Below are positions 1 through 47,183 of a DNA stretch of 47,183 nucleotides, in pieces. Position 1 is the stretch's first letter; every line of letters starts with the position of its first letter. The notes under the pieces are model-generated. The model did not search any database and was not told where the DNA came from. It saw only the letters and a list, made by a program, of their open reading frames with translations. The position numbers and the translations under genes are program-made. This stretch comes from Deltaproteobacteria bacterium (GTDB taxonomy: Bacteria > JAUYMQ01), in contig JAUYMQ010000648.1 of NCBI GenBank assembly GCA_030698575.1, forward strand, positions 1 through 47,183. The letters run 5' to 3'.

Positions 1-141
1 CGATGAGCGCCCGGAGGCCTTCGGCTCGTGAATCGAGCGCGGCCTGTTGCTCCCCGCCACCCCGGGTCAGCCGCTCGGTTTTTCGCTCGGCCTGTCGCAC
101 ACGGTCGCCCGCGGCATGCGCGTTGGCGCGAGCGCGGTCGA
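1..141. repeat. Terminal direct repeat, left copy (circular overlap)
   Basis: Bases 1-141 are identical to 47043-47183. The overlap lies inside one open gene that continues in the same frame across the joint, so it reads as assembly overlap of a circular or circularly permuted molecule rather than two separate repeats. The length of 141 is also a common maximum k-mer of metagenome assemblers (inference). Confidence 0.95.
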
Positions 142-1663
142 TCTGGGCGGACCTGATGCTCCGTGCCTTCTCCGCCCCTTGCTGTGCAGCCTCGCACAGC
201 GCAATGGTTTCGCGCGCAGCCACACCGACTTTCCTGGTCCGCTCCAGGTCCTGCTCGATCCGGGCTACAAGGCGCGCCGCCGCCGCGAAATCCTCCTCCA
301 TATCCTCGAGCACGCCGTGCGTGGTCTGGCCGCAGGTGGGGCAGATCCCCGACTCTAGCGCCGCAGCCTGCTGTTGTTGCACCCGCTGGTCCGCTTTGGC
401 GGCCGCCAGCTCCCCGGTGAGCCCGCGATATTCGGCGCCCGACTCGGCATGTACCGCACGCGCCGCTTCGAGCTCCCGCAACTTCTCCGGCGAAACCATC
501 GGCTCCGGCCCGGCCTCGATGGCTACGATTTCGGCGTTGGCCTGCGCGAGCTCTTGCCGGGCCGCCGCCAGCTCCCTGGCCGCCGCCGCTGCTGCTTCCC
601 CGCCCGACTGCTGGGCGAGCCGCTGCATCTCAGCCTCGAGGTTGCCGACTTCGGCGCGACGGGCCTCCAGGCGTTCTTTGCCCCGGCGCTCCTCCTCGGT
701 TGCAGCGGCGTAGGCCCGCCTGACATCGTCCAGGCGTCTCTGCGCCTCGGCGACCGCGCCCTCGGCCGCCCGAACCCGCTCCGCGCGGGTGCGCTCCCAG
801 CGCCGGATGTCCTCACGGCCGCGGTCCAGCTCGGCGCGCACCGCGGCGACGGTCTCGGACGCCCGATAAGCAGCCTGCTGCGCCGCCTCGGCTTCCTGCC
901 GCAGTCCGGCAATCGTAGTCGTGTCGGGCGCGTCCGGAGTCGGGGCCTCGAGGACCGGGTTGGTGGCGAGCACGGCGCTGCGTGCGGCCTTCTGGCGCTC
1001 CTTGCTGGTGATGCCGAGCACCAGCAGCACGTCCCGCACGTCGCCCTCGCTGCCGCCGGCGAGGCCGAGCTCGGAGAAGCGCGCCCGGAGCGCCGGCAAG
1101 TCGAGCGCTAGCTCATCGACCGAGGTCTGCTTGGCCCGGCTGAGGGCGCCGAGCGCCACCTCGTTGAGCAGCCGCTTTGGAGTCCACTCGGACACGCCGC
1201 CGCACAGGCGCAGTATCATCTTCTCGAGCTGGTCCGGCGCCATCGCCCGCATGGCCTCGAGGTCGAGCAGCATCGGCCCGACGTGAGGCGCGCCGTAGCG
1301 ATCGACGAGGGCCTGGCGCACGATGCTGTTTTTTCTCGCGTCGCACCCGCTGAGCTTCACGTTGCGCCGGCCGCTGTCGCCGTCGGCGGCAAACTCGAAG
1401 CTGGCCTGAGCGCCTCCACTGTCGTGCACCGTCACGCCCCACCGTCCGGTAGTGCCGGTCCAGTCGAGGCACGGGCCGGTGGCCACGACGCCCTCGTTGT
1501 CGGTCATCGCGCCGGGCACCTGCTGCGTCGTCGCGAGCAGGATCGCCTGGGCGATCGAGGTCTTCCCGGTGCCGTTCAAACCGCTGATGATGCCCGCCGC
1601 CGGCAGGTCCAGCGTGAGGACGTGCCCGCGGAAGCCAGCGAGCTCGACTTGGGTGAATCGCAT
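1..1663 (-). CDS. Rad50/SbcC-like ATPase, N-terminal part (gene crosses contig ends)
   Basis: This is the first 554 residues of an 814-residue protein whose gene continues at the right end of the window (stop at 46261). Residues 28-36 form a Walker A loop (GLNGTGKTS, Lys34) after a typical short SMC/Rad50 N-terminus. A long Ala/Glu/Arg-rich coiled coil follows from about residue 240. At 441-444 lies CPTC, the CxxC zinc hook of Rad50/SbcC proteins, mid-coil as expected. The start ATG at 1663 overlaps the stop of the Csx3-like gene (TGATG), with a Shine-Dalgarno-like GGAGG just upstream, so the two are translationally coupled. No SbcD/Mre11 partner is seen; the downstream exonuclease is YqaJ-type. 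Likely role is DNA end processing during recombination or replication. No stop interrupts this frame between 1 and 1663. Confidence 0.9.
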   Translation of the reverse strand, partial: MRFTQVELAGFRGHVLTLDLPAAGIISGLNGTGKTSIAQAILLATTQQVPGAMTDNEGVVATGPCLDWTGTTGRWGVTVHDSGGAQASFEFAADGDSGRRNVKLSGCDARKNSIVRQALVDRYGAPHVGPMLLDLEAMRAMAPDQLEKMILRLCGGVSEWTPKRLLNEVALGALSRAKQTSVDELALDLPALRARFSELGLAGGSEGDVRDVLLVLGITSKERQKAARSAVLATNPVLEAPTPDAPDTTTIAGLRQEAEAAQQAAYRASETVAAVRAELDRGREDIRRWERTRAERVRAAEGAVAEAQRRLDDVRRAYAAATEEERRGKERLEARRAEVGNLEAEMQRLAQQSGGEAAAAAARELAAARQELAQANAEIVAIEAGPEPMVSPEKLRELEAARAVHAESGAEYRGLTGELAAAKADQRVQQQQAAALESGICPTCGQTTHGVLEDMEEDFAAAARLVARIEQDLERTRKVGVAARETIALCEAAQQGAEKARSIRSAQIDRARANAHAAGDRVRQAERKTERLTRGGGEQQAALDSRAEGLRALI

Positions 1664-1986
1664 CACGCCACCTCCATGGGCACGACCGTGGGCACGACGT
1701 CGCCCAGACGTCTGGCGTTGTTGTACGATCCCACGACCACGGCGCCTCCTAACCGTGGATCGTACGTAGCGATCCACTCAGCTAGGCAGTAGCGGGTTAT
1801 CAGCGCTCCGTACACCCAGATCGGCGCGCGGCCAGATAGGATCACGCCCCTGTCTGGAGGGACCTCGCCGTGGCGAGTGCCGATGCTTGGTAGGGCGAAC
1901 ATGGCCAAGTCGGCCGGCACGATCGGCCCCTCGGTGTCGATTTCCACGAGGGTGTACTTCGGTCCCTCCTGAATGGAGTACTTCAT
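1663..1986 (-). CDS. Csx3/Crn3-family protein (ring-nuclease fold), histidines replaced
   Basis: This 107-residue protein matches the CRISPR-associated Csx3 family in length and motif order: SGRAPIWVYGAL at 51-62, YDPRLG at 75-80, AVVVGS at 82-87 and a GD at 95-96. Csx3 (Crn3) binds and cleaves cyclic tetra-adenylate, the messenger of type III CRISPR systems. Asp76 and Arg78 of the family's DPR motif are present. The conserved histidines are not: the positions matching His57, His60 and His80 of the archaeal protein (numbering recalled, not looked up) are Thr64, Cys67 and Tyr88. It may therefore bind cyclic oligoadenylate without cutting it, or have another role. The start overlaps the preceding gene by ATGA with a GGAGGTGGGGG ribosome site. 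It sits directly before the Rad50-like gene. Family call is strong; anti-CRISPR function is inference. Confidence 0.8.
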   Translation of the reverse strand: MKYSIQEGPKYTLVEIDTEGPIVPADLAMFALPSIGTRHGEVPPDRGVILSGRAPIWVYGALITRYCLAEWIATYDPRLGGAVVVGSYNNARRLGDVVPTVVPMEVA

Positions 1987-2300
1987 GCCCCCACCTCCAT
2001 CGGTCGAGCGGTGCGGCCGCTGGCGAGCAGTGCCGTCTCGATCACGCCCATGATTGGCCCCTCGATGGGGGCCAGACGGCGCAAATCGGCGAGCCGCCCG
2101 ACGAAGGCCACCCGCCGGCCGGAGACCGAACGGGCGCACAAGCGAACCATGGTCCACTCGGTCGGGGCCTCGACCAGCACGGCCGCTGCCAGGCATCCGA
2201 ATGCCACCCTCCGGTCGCTGGTGTAGTCGGCTGGTGCCCCGCACAGGGGGCACGTAGTGGGGCGGTGGGGTTTGTGGGCCTCGATGTGTACCTCTTCCAT
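1983..2300 (-). CDS. Small CxxC protein
   Basis: This 105-residue protein has CPLC near residues 17-20, the first half of a zinc-ribbon-like motif, and an Arg-rich C-terminal half. No family is recognised. The ATG at 2300 is chosen over the upstream in-frame TTG because TTGGAGG provides a ribosome site 5-8 bases ahead of it. Its stop overlaps the Csx3-like start (ATGA), so the two are probably translated together. The neighbouring gene product at 2313-2537 also begins with a CPxC motif followed by a similar GRVAV/RRVAF segment, so the pair may be diverged duplicates. Its place at the head of the early operon suggests an early host-takeover or regulatory role (inference). Confidence 0.7.
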   Translation of the reverse strand: MEEVHIEAHKPHRPTTCPLCGAPADYTSDRRVAFGCLAAAVLVEAPTEWTMVRLCARSVSGRRVAFVGRLADLRRLAPIEGPIMGVIETALLASGRTARPMEVGA

Positions 2301-2312
2301 GATTACCTCCAA

Positions 2313-2537
2313 TCACCAGATCCAGACTATTTGCGAGCTCCGCGCCAGTAGATCGCGGAGTTTATCGATTTCCGCGCGCTGCTCGCGCACGACCTCGCTG
2401 GCGTGCCGGCACTGCGTGGTTTCTAGCCACGATCCTCCCACCAACACAGCTACTCGACCGCACCGGTAGCCCACTACCGTCACTGTGCTGTCGAGAATTT
2501 CCGCCTCACAGATCGGGCACTTATCCAGCGCATGCAC
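2313..2537 (-). CDS. Small CxxC zinc-ribbon-like protein, first gene of leftward operon
   Basis: This 74-residue protein begins with CPIC (residues 7-10) and has later Cys and His residues (GYRCG, QCRHA) that could complete a zinc site, then a short helical tail. The start is GTG at 2537 with only a weak ribosome site, so this end is uncertain. It is the first convincing gene downstream of the leftward promoter at 2819-2848, about 275 bases from the predicted transcription start. The stop is 12 bases before the next start. Function unknown. Confidence 0.6.
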   Translation of the reverse strand: MHALDKCPICEAEILDSTVTVVGYRCGRVAVLVGGSWLETTQCRHASEVVREQRAEIDKLRDLLARSSQIVWIW

Positions 2538-2818: not shown

Positions 2819-2848
2819 ATTGTTCCGCAACACGAAACATCCTGTCAA
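2819..2848 (-). promoter_or_regulatory. Leftward early promoter
   Basis: Read on the minus strand, a perfect TTGACA (2848-2843) is followed 18 bases later by AACAAT (2824-2819). The palindromic operator at 2821-2839 fills the spacer and overlaps the -10; the second operator at 2855-2873 lies 6 bases upstream of the -35. All genes from 2537 leftward through the joint to integrase (40204) are closely spaced in this direction. Confidence 0.65.
2821..2839. promoter_or_regulatory. Operator, family 1, site B
   Basis: TGTTCCGC-AAC-ACGAAACA is a 19-bp imperfect palindrome matching TGTTYCGC-N3-GCGRAACA. It covers the spacer and part of the -10 of the leftward early promoter, so a bound repressor would block it. 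It is 34 bp centre to centre from site C. Confidence 0.7.
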
Positions 2849-2854
2849 CAGAAA

Positions 2855-2873
2855 TGTTTCGCAGGGCGGAACA
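2855..2873. promoter_or_regulatory. Operator, family 1, site C
   Basis: TGTTTCGC-AGG-GCGGAACA is a 19-bp palindrome of the same family as 2821-2839 and 5942-5960. It lies just upstream of the leftward promoter's -35 and 16 bases before the start of the rightward S24-like gene, so it could also control that gene; I see no good rightward -35. Confidence 0.7.
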
Positions 2874-3409: not shown

Positions 3410-3892
3410 ATGCCAGTGACCGTTCCAATTCAACTCAACACGTGGAGCCAGAAGGCCGCGGGTGATCTGGTCATCTTCAATGTAGGTTACGAGAAGCGGA
3501 GCCTTCACCAACTTTGTGCCACATTGGTTGCCGCCGGGGTCGAAGTTCTGCTCGACGTGCGCGAACGGCCATGGAGCATGCGCCCGGAGTTTCGACGAGA
3601 GCGACTCCGCAAAGAGCTCGATGCCTCGGGCATTGGCTACGTGCATTGCAAGGCTGCCGGGAACCCGTATCGGCCAAAGCCGGGTGAGGTGAAGTCGTTC
3701 GACGATTGCATGAGGGATTACGAGCGCCATATCCGCGCATCTCCTGATGTTGTCGAGGAAATGTCCGGGCTTCTACGTGGTCGGCGCGCAGCGGTTTTTT
3801 GCTACGAGGCTCGCCGTGATCGGTGCCATCGCAGCGTGCTCCTTGACGCCATCGAGCGCATCGCTGGCCCTTTGACCGTCGTCGACCTATAA
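3410..3892 (+). CDS. DUF488 family protein
   Basis: This 160-residue protein has the DUF488 layout. IFNVGYEKRS near residues 21-30 corresponds to the family's 'TiGys' strand. LLDVRERPWSMRPEF near 46-60 is the DVRxxPxSR-like segment. FCYEARRDRCHRSVLLD near 129-145 is the C-x-E...CHR motif. The biochemical role of the family is not established to my knowledge. AGGAGG precedes the ATG. It converges on the next gene and overlaps it by six bases at the stops. The surrounding DNA has visibly lower GC and more A/T-ending codons than the structural genes, which suggests acquired cargo. Together with its neighbour it may be a lysogenic conversion or defence pair (inference). Confidence 0.85.
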   Translation: MPVTVPIQLNTWSQKAAGDLVIFNVGYEKRSLHQLCATLVAAGVEVLLDVRERPWSMRPEFRRERLRKELDASGIGYVHCKAAGNPYRPKPGEVKSFDDCMRDYERHIRASPDVVEEMSGLLRGRRAAVFCYEARRDRCHRSVLLDAIERIAGPLTVVDL

Positions 3893-4708
3893 CCCGAACA
3901 TCGTCATCTGGCCGACCTTAGGCACCTTGAGCGAGTCCAATAGCATGAAGTTCGTGAGGTGGGTGCGTGATGTTCCCACGAAGAAGAAGATGTCGTATCG
4001 GGCCGTGTCGAGCTCGCGACGCATCAAGTCAATGACCTTGCCATTCAAGTTCGCGTCCCTGGCGAACTTCAGCTTCCGGTAGAGCTCGTTGAGGCCCCAG
4101 TTGTTGAGGCGCATGTCGTGTCCATTGCATCTGTTGTCATCGCAACGCCATGGAACGTGAAAGCCCATCTCCGGAAAGGCAATAGGCTTCATTTGGCCAA
4201 ACATGGCACCCTGAGCCAACAGTTCGCGTTCGATCGCTTCCCATTCGGCGCGCTCGGACTCGGGCCTGCGCTTGAGGTAGATCTTATCGAGGTTGATCGC
4301 CTTCGGCCTGACGATTGCGAGGGAGCGTTTTGGAAGCTTTCCTTTAGGACGTTCGGCTGTCATGGACTCGATGGAGTCAGCAATGCCTGGTGAACGCTCA
4401 ACATAATTTCGCCGTTCTTCGGGATCCTTAATTACCGGGCCGAGCTCGATCGAGTCGGGATGGATCCGGATGCTCTCGCTGCGTGGATCCTCAGAATGCG
4501 GCGCTGCGTCAACCGTGATCCACTGCCACGCCTTAAACCGCTTGCCTTCGTCGAGATACCGCTTTGGAACCGGGTGCAACCGCACAATTTCCTTGGTGTC
4601 CTCGCGAAGCGCTCCGGTACACGCGACTTCTCGGTACTTTCTTGAGTACCGCGGGTAGGTCGTCCCCAGCACGAGAAGGCGCGATCGGGTCCACATCTTC
4701 GGGTGCAT
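3887..4708 (-). CDS. Uncharacterised protein with Cys/His motif, facing DUF488
   Basis: This is a 273-residue protein that I do not recognise by family. The N-terminal region (about 10-80) is beta-rich with LVLGTTYPRYSRKYREVACTG and a conserved-looking WQWITVDA. The middle is charged and helical. Near 190-205 lies CDDNRCNGHDMRLNNWG, a C-x4-C-x2-H arrangement that could bind zinc. The C-terminus ends in DIFFFVGTSRTHLTNFMLL and VGQMTMFGL, a compact hydrophobic end. The start ATG has ACTAGGA upstream. It is tail-to-tail with the DUF488 gene, with a six-base overlap. Possible roles include nucleic-acid binding or a nuclease partner; none is shown. Confidence 0.7.
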   Translation of the reverse strand: MHPKMWTRSRLLVLGTTYPRYSRKYREVACTGALREDTKEIVRLHPVPKRYLDEGKRFKAWQWITVDAAPHSEDPRSESIRIHPDSIELGPVIKDPEERRNYVERSPGIADSIESMTAERPKGKLPKRSLAIVRPKAINLDKIYLKRRPESERAEWEAIERELLAQGAMFGQMKPIAFPEMGFHVPWRCDDNRCNGHDMRLNNWGLNELYRKLKFARDANLNGKVIDLMRRELDTARYDIFFFVGTSRTHLTNFMLLDSLKVPKVGQMTMFGL

Positions 4709-5535: not shown

Positions 5536-5913
5536 TCAACCTCCCGTTTTGTTGTGTCGACGTTGCACGACCTTGATGTGGTCCAATGCCTCGCGACGAG
5601 CATCCGGGTTGAGCCCTTCGAGGATCGTGATGGCCTCCAACGTTTCAGCATCAAGCGTCGCCTCTGGCGGATGGTGGTAGCCGAACAATTCGTACGTTGG
5701 GCATTGGAGCGCATCCGCGAGCACGTCGATGGTCTGGTGCGTCCATCCGATGTTCGAGATCTCCATTCGCGCGATGGTTGATCGGTGCATACCGGCTCGT
5801 TCAGCAAGTTGTTCCTGCGTCAACCCTCGTCGTTTCCTTGCCTCTGCCAGGCGTAGCCGCATCAACAGAGTGTCGCACATGCCGGAGCATTGCTCGATAG
5901 CGCGGCGCGGCAC
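5536..5913 (-). CDS. XRE-family repressor
   Basis: This is a 125-residue protein. Residues about 19-75 form a Cro/C1-type helix-turn-helix (RLRLAEARKRRGLTQEQLAERAGM, then HRSTIARMEISN), with a helical C-terminal tail that probably dimerises. The GTG at 5913 has GAGG five bases upstream; internal ATGs at 5880 and 5862 lack ribosome sites. It is divergent from the HTH gene at 5969, with operator site A (5942-5960) between them. It is a candidate lysogeny repressor acting on the family 1 operators at 2821, 2855 and 5942, though the divergent HTH protein is an equal candidate. Two membrane-protein genes follow in the same operon. Confidence 0.85.
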   Translation of the reverse strand: MPRRAIEQCSGMCDTLLMRLRLAEARKRRGLTQEQLAERAGMHRSTIARMEISNIGWTHQTIDVLADALQCPTYELFGYHHPPEATLDAETLEAITILEGLNPDARREALDHIKVVQRRHNKTGG

Positions 5914-5933: not shown

Positions 5934-5962
5934 TTGACTAACGTTCCGCGTTGCGGAACAAT
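5934..5962 (+). promoter_or_regulatory. Rightward early promoter with operator site A
   Basis: TTGACT (5934-5939) and AACAAT (5957-5962) are 17 bases apart. The spacer holds GTTCCGC-GTT-GCGGAAC (5943-5959), a perfect palindrome of operator family 1 that overlaps the -10. The expected start of transcription, seven bases after the -10, falls on the ATG at 5969, so the message would be leaderless. Confidence 0.7.
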
Positions 5963-40073: not shown

Positions 40074-40123
40074 GCAGAATCGCACTCTGGAGGCCGTCGG
40101 TTCGATCCCGATCAGCTCCACTA
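40074..40123 (+). other. attP core: 3' half of a tRNA-Ala(CGC)-like gene
   Basis: The sequence folds as the 3' part of a tRNA. It has an anticodon stem GCAGA/TCTGG (four pairs), the seven-base loop ATCGCAC with anticodon CGC, a five-base variable loop, T-stem GTCGG/CCGAT closing TTCGATC, and the acceptor strand CAGCTCC plus A. The U at position 70 and the acceptor match tRNA-Ala. No D-arm or 5' acceptor is present upstream, so it is not a working tRNA. It lies 81 bases beyond the integrase stop. Phages commonly carry such a copy so that integration restores the host tRNA. Confidence 0.8.
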
Positions 40124-40203
40124 ATTCCGCCGCTTTGCATGTATGGCCACCGGGTTCCTGTGCGGTCCCGCACATAAACCGCGCAGGAATCCCGGAGGCC
40201 GAT

Positions 40204-44208: not shown

Positions 44209-45258
44209 CTATGCCCACGGGTCGAAGTCGCCGCCGGCCGCCGGCCCCTGCGCGGGGGGCGCCGTCGTCGCAGTCGTTGTTGGTGCAGGGGTTGCCGTCG
44301 TCGCACGCGTCGCGCTCATGGCAGTGAAGGGGTCGTCATCGCCTTCCAGCGGCTTACGCTGTACGGACGCGGGGTTGCGGTCGGTCGGGAAGAGCCGCGC
44401 GGTGCGCTCGCCGTTTTTTTCCATCTGGTGCGCGGGGGGCGCCGTCGTCGCACGCTCGGATTGTGCAGGCGTCGCCGTATCATCTGACTCGGCCTCGTCG
44501 GCCTCGTTGTCGATCCAATCGTGGGCCTCGACCAGCTTGGTCGTGGGGAGATCGCCGAGGCGGACGAGTGTGAAGTCCTGCAGGAGGTTTTGCTCGGCGT
44601 CGTCGTCGATCTCCCTCAGGCGCTGGCGGAGAGCGGCGACGTCCGTGTGTGAGATAGTCTCTGGCTGCCGTCGCCGGCGGCTGGTGGGGCGCTCGGGTTC
44701 ACGGTTTGTCTTCTGTGAGCGCCGTGGAGCGGGCTCGTCGTCTTCATCCTGCGGGAAGTCCTCGCTACCGATGTGGCTCAGATCCAGTATGTTTGTGGCC
44801 CGGATCTCAGCCATCTCACTATCGGTGATCTCCTCCTCCGGCGTGATCGAGTAGGTGGTCTTCGGGTCGCCCTTCTGCCCCACCCGCTCGATTTGATACC
44901 ACCACAGCTCGCGACCGAGCTTCTTGGTGGCTCGGCAGACTAGCTTGAACCAGCCAATTCCACCCTCCACAACCTTCATCCGACATTCGTCCCGGACGTA
45001 GAAGCACACCATGACCTTGACGCTCTTCCGGCTGCCCTTGCGGCACGCGCGGCAGTCGGACCCGCCGCAGTCGACGTAGGTCTGCCCGGTCCAGTGTACC
45101 TCCCGGATCCGCGGGTCACCCACGAACGCCCCCACCACCGTATCCTCGTCATCCTCCAGGCGGACGTAGATCGATGCCCTCTTGGCGATGTCCTTCGCGG
45201 TCGCCAATGCGGCGTCCCACGCGTCCGCACCTCGCGCCCGTCCGTTGCCTCTTGCCAT
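44209..45258 (-). CDS. Putative ssDNA-binding protein
   Basis: This is a 349-residue protein. The N-terminal 145 residues contain TYVDCGGSDCRACRKGSRKSVKVMVCFYV, with clustered Cys that may bind zinc, then GWFKLVCRATKKLGRELWWYQIERVGQKGDPKTTYSITPEEE. This resembles the end of gp32-like ssDNA-binding cores ('...G.d.Y.itp'). The remainder is low-complexity, acidic and Thr/Ala/Pro-rich and ends DPWA, reminiscent of SSB acidic tails that recruit partners. ATG 45258 overlaps the exonuclease stop with GGAGG upstream. Context between YqaJ and DnaQ genes supports a recombination role. Confidence 0.65.
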   Translation of the reverse strand: MARGNGRARGADAWDAALATAKDIAKRASIYVRLEDDEDTVVGAFVGDPRIREVHWTGQTYVDCGGSDCRACRKGSRKSVKVMVCFYVRDECRMKVVEGGIGWFKLVCRATKKLGRELWWYQIERVGQKGDPKTTYSITPEEEITDSEMAEIRATNILDLSHIGSEDFPQDEDDEPAPRRSQKTNREPERPTSRRRRQPETISHTDVAALRQRLREIDDDAEQNLLQDFTLVRLGDLPTTKLVEAHDWIDNEADEAESDDTATPAQSERATTAPPAHQMEKNGERTARLFPTDRNPASVQRKPLEGDDDPFTAMSATRATTATPAPTTTATTAPPAQGPAAGGDFDPWA

Positions 45259-46250
45259 CACTTAACCTCCGAAACCGTAAAACGACGGTAGCTGGACGTC
45301 GCGCAGTACTCCGCCGCGAGGTCCGGTCGCTCCGCCCGCAGTCGTTTGATGTCGATCCGCTCGGACTGGACAGTCGTCCACCGCACCAGGTGGCTGCCGG
45401 CAGAGCCCTTCTCGTGCTCTCCGAGCATTGTTTTGATTTGATTTTCCACCGCGGTCCGCCGCCGCTCGAGTGCCTTCTGCTCGTCGCAGATGGACTCCCG
45501 CTCCGCGATGAGCGACAGCGCGTCCGCCGGCAGCCGCACGATGTCTGGGGTGGACTCGGCCCACAGCAGCGCCAGCGCTTCCGCGGTGCTCTCGGTGTCG
45601 TCCACCGGGGGCATCTCGCCCGACTGCACGTAGCCCCAGAACTCGCGTTCCTGCTGGAGCAGCCAGGCGATGGCGTCCTCGTCGCGGTTGACGATGCGCT
45701 CTTCATAGTGGTTGCCGCCGAGCAGGACGGGGACGTAGGCCCGCTGCACCATGGGCCCGAGCACCGCGAGGTAGTGGAGGGTCTGCCAGTAGTAGTCGGC
45801 CGGCACTCCACCCGCCCACTTGCGCTTCATGTACTCGCCGCCGGTCTTCACCTCGACGAGCACCGGCCGCCGGTTCTCGTCCAGTGCAATGCCGTCGAGG
45901 TTGGCGAGAGCCCACGGCACATCGGGGTGGCGGAGGGTGGCCCCGACGCGGTGGACGGTGAGCTCCGGGTGCGACTCGGCGAACTTCTGGAGCACCGTCG
46001 CCTCGTGGCGGTGCCCCCACTCCATGGGCTCAGTCTGCTCCCGAGGTGGGATCCGGTCGGTCTTGTCCGCCCAGAGGTAGACCCGCGAGCGGTAGTCGCT
46101 CTTGCCAACCGCGGCCGCGGCGTCGGATCCGCCGATGCCACCCTTGCGCAGCTCGAGCCATCGCTCGTGCGTCATGGCGTCGTGCCAGCCGATGATCCCC
46201 GCGTGCCCGACGCGCGTTGCAGTCCGGGGGATGGTCTGTATAGCGCCCAT
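45258..46250 (-). CDS. YqaJ-type phage recombination exonuclease
   Basis: This 330-residue protein of the lambda-exonuclease-like PD-(D/E)xK family has a GGIGGSDAAAAVGKSDY start motif (37-53), EWGHRHEATV with Glu83, and ANLDGIALDENRRPVLVEVKTG containing Asp119, Glu133 and Lys135 as the D...ExK centre. A Gln/Tyr helix (YYWQTLHYLAVLG) near 149-161 is typical. The enzyme degrades 5' strands to give 3' overhangs for annealing. The ATG at 46250 is chosen because the upstream extension lacks conserved features. It lies between the Rad50-like ATPase and the ssDNA-binding protein. Confidence 0.92.
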   Translation of the reverse strand: MGAIQTIPRTATRVGHAGIIGWHDAMTHERWLELRKGGIGGSDAAAAVGKSDYRSRVYLWADKTDRIPPREQTEPMEWGHRHEATVLQKFAESHPELTVHRVGATLRHPDVPWALANLDGIALDENRRPVLVEVKTGGEYMKRKWAGGVPADYYWQTLHYLAVLGPMVQRAYVPVLLGGNHYEERIVNRDEDAIAWLLQQEREFWGYVQSGEMPPVDDTESTAEALALLWAESTPDIVRLPADALSLIAERESICDEQKALERRRTAVENQIKTMLGEHEKGSAGSHLVRWTTVQSERIDIKRLRAERPDLAAEYCATSSYRRFTVSEVK

Positions 46251-46260
46251 GCCACCCCCC

Positions 46261-47183
46261 CTACACCGCCAGCCGGCGCTGCTCGATGTCCACCACCACC
46301 GCGCCGGGGCCCCACCCTGTGGGGTCGACGGCGAACACGAGCACCTGGTCGAGGTGGCCCCCGTCCACGAGCCAGCGCGCCAGGCGCCAGAAAGTGGCTC
46401 GGTTCTCCGCGTCGAGGGCCTCACCACCGTCCAGCACCACCACCCGGCAGGGCGACTGCGCCAAACGGTGGAGCGTGGCACTCAACATGATCATCGCCAT
46501 CGCGAAGTGCCCCGCGCTGAGGCTGGACAGCGGAGCGAAACCGCGGACCGTCTCATAGCCGAGCCCGAAGCGGGCGCCGAAACGCGCCGTGAAGGTGCCG
46601 ATGTTGACGCCGTACTTCTTCGCGAGCTTGTCCATCGGTCGCGTGATCGGGGCCACGAGCCCCTCGAGCACCTCGCGCTCGAGGCCGTGGGCCGCCGCCG
46701 CCACGGACCTCCAGATATCCCCCCACGCCTGGGCACGCAGCCGCTTGCACTGCGCGTCTGCCTTGCGCTGCGCGTCCTCGTCCGCCAGCGCCCGCTGCGC
46801 CTGAGCGGAGTGGTAGGCCTCAGATGCCTCCTTCGCCGCGCGCTTGGCGTGCTCGCTCTGCTCCTCGGCTGCCAGCAGACGGCGTGCGACCTCCGCGGGC
46901 TCGGGCGGTCTGCCGGTGTCGTCGGCTGAGGTGGCGACGAGGGCGCGCTTCGCCGCCGCGAGCTGAGCATCCGCAGCCTCGAGCTGCTCGAGAGCCTCAC
47001 ACCGTCGGGTGGCTACCGCATCGAGCTGCTCGGCGAGCTCGGCGATGAGCGCCCGGAGGCCTTCGGCTCGTGAATCGAGCGCGGCCTGTTGCTCCCCGCC
47101 ACCCCGGGTCAGCCGCTCGGTTTTTCGCTCGGCCTGTCGCACACGGTCGCCCGCGGCATGCGCGTTGGCGCGAGCGCGGTCGA
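46261..47183 (-). CDS. Rad50/SbcC-like ATPase, C-terminal part
   Basis: This continues the gene that starts at 1663; the 141-base overlap is read in the same frame in both copies. It holds the descending coiled coil, then an ABC-type signature (LSAGH, about residues 729-733 of the whole protein) and a Walker B strand (VVVLD, Asp759) followed by a D-loop-like ALDAENR. The residue after the Walker B Asp is Gly rather than the usual catalytic Glu; a Glu lies three residues further on, so hydrolysis may be altered or use that residue (inference). The stop at 46261 is 10 bases upstream of the YqaJ-type exonuclease start, so the two probably act together on DNA ends. Confidence 0.9.
   Translation of the reverse strand, partial: DRARANAHAAGDRVRQAERKTERLTRGGGEQQAALDSRAEGLRALIAELAEQLDAVATRRCEALEQLEAADAQLAAAKRALVATSADDTGRPPEPAEVARRLLAAEEQSEHAKRAAKEASEAYHSAQAQRALADEDAQRKADAQCKRLRAQAWGDIWRSVAAAAHGLEREVLEGLVAPITRPMDKLAKKYGVNIGTFTARFGARFGLGYETVRGFAPLSSLSAGHFAMAMIMLSATLHRLAQSPCRVVVLDGGEALDAENRATFWRLARWLVDGGHLDQVLVFAVDPTGWGPGAVVVDIEQRRLAV
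47043..47183. repeat. Terminal direct repeat, right copy
   Basis: Exact copy of bases 1-141. Removing it leaves a circle of 47,042 bp. With headful-type terminase and portal genes present, a circularly permuted virion genome is the simplest reading, though a circular replicating prophage form is not excluded. Confidence 0.95.

Follow-up and report, generated by a model that had tools for sequence, protein, structure and literature searches.

The closest described counterpart of the protein considered here is AfCsx3 (Crn3/Csx3; PDB 3WZI, 6VJG and 6YUD), in which H57, H60 and H80 lie on one face, and I22, S44, G45, R46, I49 and R71 on the opposite face hold cyclic tetra-adenylate (cA4). It is this second face, that of D69, which supplies most of the cA4 contacts. 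H60 and D69 are essential, the H60A and D69A substitutions each abolishing activity, and R71A and H80A strongly lower it. The H60A protein, though inactive, still binds cA4 and becomes milky, a change that the authors attribute to cA4-bridged fibres, and the Methanosarcina mazei Csx3 gives partial relief of cA4 immunity in vivo (PMC7371418). A Csx3-like fold also occurs in Cat1 (CARF domain, PDB 9MUD), a TIR NADase fusion and host type III effector that sandwiches cA4 between stacked CARF dimers in filaments and displays no detectable ring-nuclease activity (PMC12162218). Some members of Csx15, another CARF family that is CRISPR-associated and reported absent from phages, act as cA4 sponges by stacking, with the caveat from the same authors that the large amounts of cA4 made by type III systems may defeat a sponge (PMC13148439). 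Viruses are known to encode cA4 counter-defence in the form of AcrIII-1 (DUF1874) and AcrIII-2 (viral SAVED), both of which cut cA4. A survey published in 2025, covering 28,114 phage genomes, lists AcrIII-1, Csx20 and Csx16 and no Crn3 (PMC12409355), and we found no report of a phage Crn3 in the literature searched.

We analysed a stretch of 47,183 nucleotides (the window), contig C71 of a 653-contig MAG bin (G000). A 141-base direct repeat at its two ends indicates that the contig is circular, with a length of about 47.0 kb, and its terminase, portal, major head, baseplate and tyrosine recombinase genes identify it as a contractile-tailed temperate phage. Only distant matches to its terminase and its YqaJ nuclease were found in phages, and a search of viral contigs through the YqaJ nuclease returned no relatives of the whole phage. 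An earlier note, made from the sequence, had described a Csx3/Crn3-like gene near one end of the window; its position and strand are as described (Table 1), and the SGRxPIW, YDPRLG and AVVV segments it named are present. The gene lies among phage genes rather than in a type III CRISPR locus.

The profile search and structure prediction that the earlier note proposed as checks both returned Csx3. The protein exceeds the curated cut-offs of Pfam Cas_csx3 (PF09620; E = 4.4e-23, 81.4 versus 21 bits) and of NCBIfam Crn3/Csx3 (TIGR02579; E = 2.1e-22, 79.2 bits versus an equivalog cut-off of 55.4), and matches the PADLOC Csx3 models (E = 2.1e-23) and the AfCsx3 sequences in the PDB (E about 1e-15). 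An AlphaFold2 model built with 70 homologues has a pLDDT of 90.3 and the Csx3 fold. Among solved structures it matches AfCsx3 entries best, 6YUD with bound cA4 being one of them (Foldseek E = 5e-9), and it superposes on AfCsx3 with a Z score of 15.7 over 98 residues at 2.1 Å; the second distinct structural match is the Cat1 CARF domain (Z score of 10.5). No Pfam family other than Cas_csx3 matched at E values up to 1, which leaves the protein outside DUF1874 and SAVED, and SAVED chains matched the model weakly in structure comparison (Z scores of 3–4.6). The folds of AcrIII-1 and AcrIII-2 differ from that of the window protein. It is a Csx3 homologue by descent, which we file, as to function, outside the Crn3 ring nucleases. 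No matching PHROGs family and no convincing match in a viral structure library were found, and close relatives were detected neither in viral contigs by a single-sequence scan nor among 50,697 phage records by tblastn. In the tree the window protein stands alone on a long branch of 1.66 changes per column.

The window protein resembles AfCsx3 in fold, in sequence (about 40% identity), in its D69 and R71 equivalents and in the SGR-P-I-W ligand face, and departs from it at the histidines, in a 7-residue insertion and in being phage-borne without nearby cas genes. Alignment with AfCsx3 (numbered as in PMC7371418) and with 95 homologues places Thr64, Cys67 and Tyr88 at H57, H60 and H80, the family's histidine positions, as the earlier note had read them. 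Those histidines are conserved in 94.7%, 96.8% and 89.5% of the 95 homologues, respectively. Across the same sequences conservation reaches 85% or more in 21 columns, and the window protein retains 17 of them; its four changes are L51V and all three histidines, and the chance that four changes would take in all three is 0.003. The AfCsx3 base-face residues I22, S44, G45, R46, I49, D69 and R71 are all identical (I22, S51-G52-R53, I56, D76 and R78 in window numbering). The insertion, HGEVPPD (residues 39–45), precedes the third long strand, which ends in SGR, and by topology should sit on the histidine side of the predicted fold.

The window protein is not the sole homologue to lack all three histidines, as two cyanobacterial Csx3 proteins fused to an AAA ATPase domain (L088 and L098) lack them too, L088 having also lost R71. 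The second Csx3 copy of a tandem on an Allocoleopsis plasmid likewise looks degenerate by eye. In contrast to the window gene, these cyanobacterial fusions occur at cellular or plasmid loci. Among phage copies, loss of all three histidines was seen only in the window.

Table 1. Position of csx3 in the window and the features of its operon and control region
Feature	Position	Strand	Basis
Csx3-like protein, 107 aa	1663..1986	-	profile, structure and alignment evidence
First gene of leftward operon, 74 aa small protein with CPIC	2313..2537	-	gene calls, profile search
Second operon gene, small CxxC zinc-ribbon-like protein	1983..2312	-	sub-threshold rubredoxin-like match
Start of csx3, ATG preceded by Shine-Dalgarno-like GGAGG	1984..2001	-	sequence
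Downstream P-loop SMC/SbcC-like ATPase gene	1..1663, across circle junction to about 46261	-	P-loop by eye
YqaJ/lambda-exonuclease recombinase, downstream, same direction	45258..46481	-	profile searches
Promoter-like TTGACA-18-AACAAT of leftward operon	2819..2848	-	1 found versus 0.2 expected
Operator-like palindrome overlapping leftward promoter	2822..2838	.	motif scan
Second operator-like palindrome, upstream of leftward promoter	2856..2872	.	motif scan
Same operator motif between divergently oriented HTH regulator genes, here the fully palindromic GTTCCGCGTTGCGGAAC	5943..5959	.	motif scan
HTH repressor-like regulator	5536..5913	-	HTH_31, HTH_3 matches

The csx3 gene is translationally coupled to its neighbours in a leftward operon: its ATG overlaps the stop codon of the preceding gene by 4 nt (ATGA), and its own stop overlaps the start of the downstream gene (TGATG). 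Two copies of GTTYCGCRNNNCGRAAC adjoin the leftward promoter-like site. When up to one mismatch is allowed, the motif occurs in the window only in this region and at the palindrome between the divergent regulators, with 6 strand matches against 0.17 expected and none in 100 shuffles. This shared motif supports, but does not prove, that csx3 belongs to an early operon under a prophage repressor. The earlier note had counted csx3 among the first genes of an early leftward operon; the direction and a probable repressor link stand, and its place can be refined to that of third gene. Adjoining the phage early region, a DUF488 protein (3410–3892, + strand) and its partner (3887–4708, − strand) match the PADLOC candidate defence pair PDC-M19A/M19B (E = 1e-24 and 8e-33).

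We propose that the window protein is a phage pseudo-enzyme that binds cA4 while cutting it hardly or not at all, and so sequesters it from type III effectors, a proposal to which, by analogy with related proteins, we would give an even chance. Under this model, cA4 would be bound on the retained D69-type face of the dimer, hydrolysis would be absent or nearly so with the H57/H60/H80 face gone, and the ligand would be sandwiched head-to-tail between stacked dimers, as with AfCsx3-H60A and Cat1. The cA4 thereby withdrawn from the CARF effectors of type III CRISPR would give the phage early protection. Binding, lack of cleavage, sequestration and an anti-CRISPR role are all properties that we infer; from the H60A precedent, no Mn-dependent cleavage of cA4 is predicted. 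Sequestration is the best-supported reading because the window protein shares its arrangement of features with AfCsx3-H60A, Cat1 and Csx15. In its favour we count the profile and fold matches, the selective loss of the histidines, the in vivo effect of the M. mazei Csx3 and the shared operator motif at the operon promoter. Cat1 differs in its cap and base residues, but we count in favour also its profile match, which, read ungapped (39–98 to 200–259), has K225 where AfCsx3 has H60 and N234 where it has D69. Against it we count a bin that lacks type III genes (to which the phage is weakly linked), the large amounts of cA4 in type III systems and the dependence on a single long-branch sequence. 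As the lost H80 is the main cap-face contact, cA4 affinity or stacking may also be lower in the window protein.

The same residues could instead belong to a rebuilt active site, in which Cys67 and Tyr88 together with His39, Glu41 and Asp45 of the inserted loop replace the histidines and cA4 is still cut. By topology the three loop residues would share a face with Cys67 and Tyr88, since the insertion, which AfCsx3 lacks, lies next to where the strand begins, at the far end from SGR. D69 and R71 are kept, and AcrIII-1 and other ring nucleases need no metal (PMC7371418). We consider such a site improbable, given that H60A or D69A alone kills the activity of AfCsx3 (PMC7371418) and that other Csx3 proteins with a long loop at this place (L024, L028 and L032) retain their histidines.

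Slightly less probable again is a change of ligand, to a different cyclic nucleotide of the CBASS type or to RNA, following the change of the cap face. RNA is a known ligand of Csx3 as well, a tetraloop being bound at the same face (3WZI, which the window protein matches in sequence and in structure; PMC7371418), and the altered cap face and uncertain host leave room for another messenger. However, all known base-face contacts to cA4 are identical in the window protein, and no SMODS cyclase was found in the bin. We judge it no likelier that the gene is a decaying passenger, a former phage ring nuclease whose function has been lost. Its long branch and the lack of a close relative among the sequences searched would fit decay, but the frame is intact, a Shine-Dalgarno-like sequence and overlapping start and stop codons are in place, and the loss is confined to one functional face of a protein that keeps most of the conserved columns.

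Sequestration of cA4 would matter in a host with type III CRISPR, the presence of which the earlier note had proposed to check. The bin that contains the phage is 91.6% complete, and we found no RAMP, Cas10-palm or Cas1 match in it, and no 16S. The link between phage and bin is itself weak: their tetranucleotide correlation is 0.78, compared with 0.62–0.96 for sampled bin contigs. Near the integrase, positions 40088–40124 resemble a tRNA 3′ end and, by sequence, probably form the attP core; nothing in the bin matches this stretch over its full length, and the host may therefore be an organism other than that of the bin. The earlier interpretation is supported in part: the homology, the phage context, the probably repressor-linked early operon and the loss of the histidine face with retention of the ligand face have held, binding without cutting is the best reading, and no type III genes were found in the bin.

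Csx3 is not confined to this phage. An alignment-based scan found it encoded in 13 IMG/VR contigs, as fragments in L014 and L018; two DNA-motif scans of viral contigs added no further Csx3 contig, and a weak 43-residue fragment in L133 was discounted. In a Synergistota 'plasmid', Crn3 lies two genes past a Cro-like gene that is itself next to a LexA-type repressor, and a Pyramidobacter chromosomal contig (L096) has a Csx3 near-copy. Like the window, these are phage or phage-like contigs (L005–L017 and the chromosomal L096), and no RAMP cas genes occur in the 14 virus and plasmid records (13 virus and the Synergistota plasmid); unlike the window protein, every copy complete enough for scoring keeps all three histidines. 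The absence of RAMP genes from phages with a histidine-intact Csx3 is consistent with counter-defence. In the records examined, viral csx3 neighbours include UvsX, primase and ribonucleotide reductase (L006), SSB and RecT (L010), SbcCD (L016) and terminase (L011). The tree requires several separate acquisitions or losses of viral Csx3 (8 changes, at least 3 of them forced by well-supported branches) and gives the window protein no firm place among the homologues.

Judged from these sequences and the literature searched, Csx3 carried by phages seems to be a probable type III counter-defence class that has not been reported, with the window protein as its pseudo-enzyme variant. Viral counter-defence would gain a ring-nuclease family with it, given the survey without Crn3 and the lack of a PHROGs or viral structure match. 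A broader scenario, which we hold tentatively and at somewhat less than an even chance, is that phages acquired Csx3 on several occasions, that it joins AcrIII-1 and AcrIII-2 as a third viral means of countering cA4, and that one lineage made of it a non-cutting sponge that polymerises on cA4; in the literature searched, no type III anti-CRISPR is reported to act in this way. The histidine-less protein makes it testable whether a sponge can beat large type III cA4 pools, and with the histidine-intact phage Csx3 it forms a natural pair that separates binding from cutting. Two viral Csx3 domains (L009, 5401–6282; L014, 5365–6198) are in frame with an N-terminal domain that is weakly NUDIX-like, below the cut-off. 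Another viral Csx3 (L013, 5968–6294) presents the reverse pattern, with the histidines kept and the ligand-face SGR altered (G45N and R46A).
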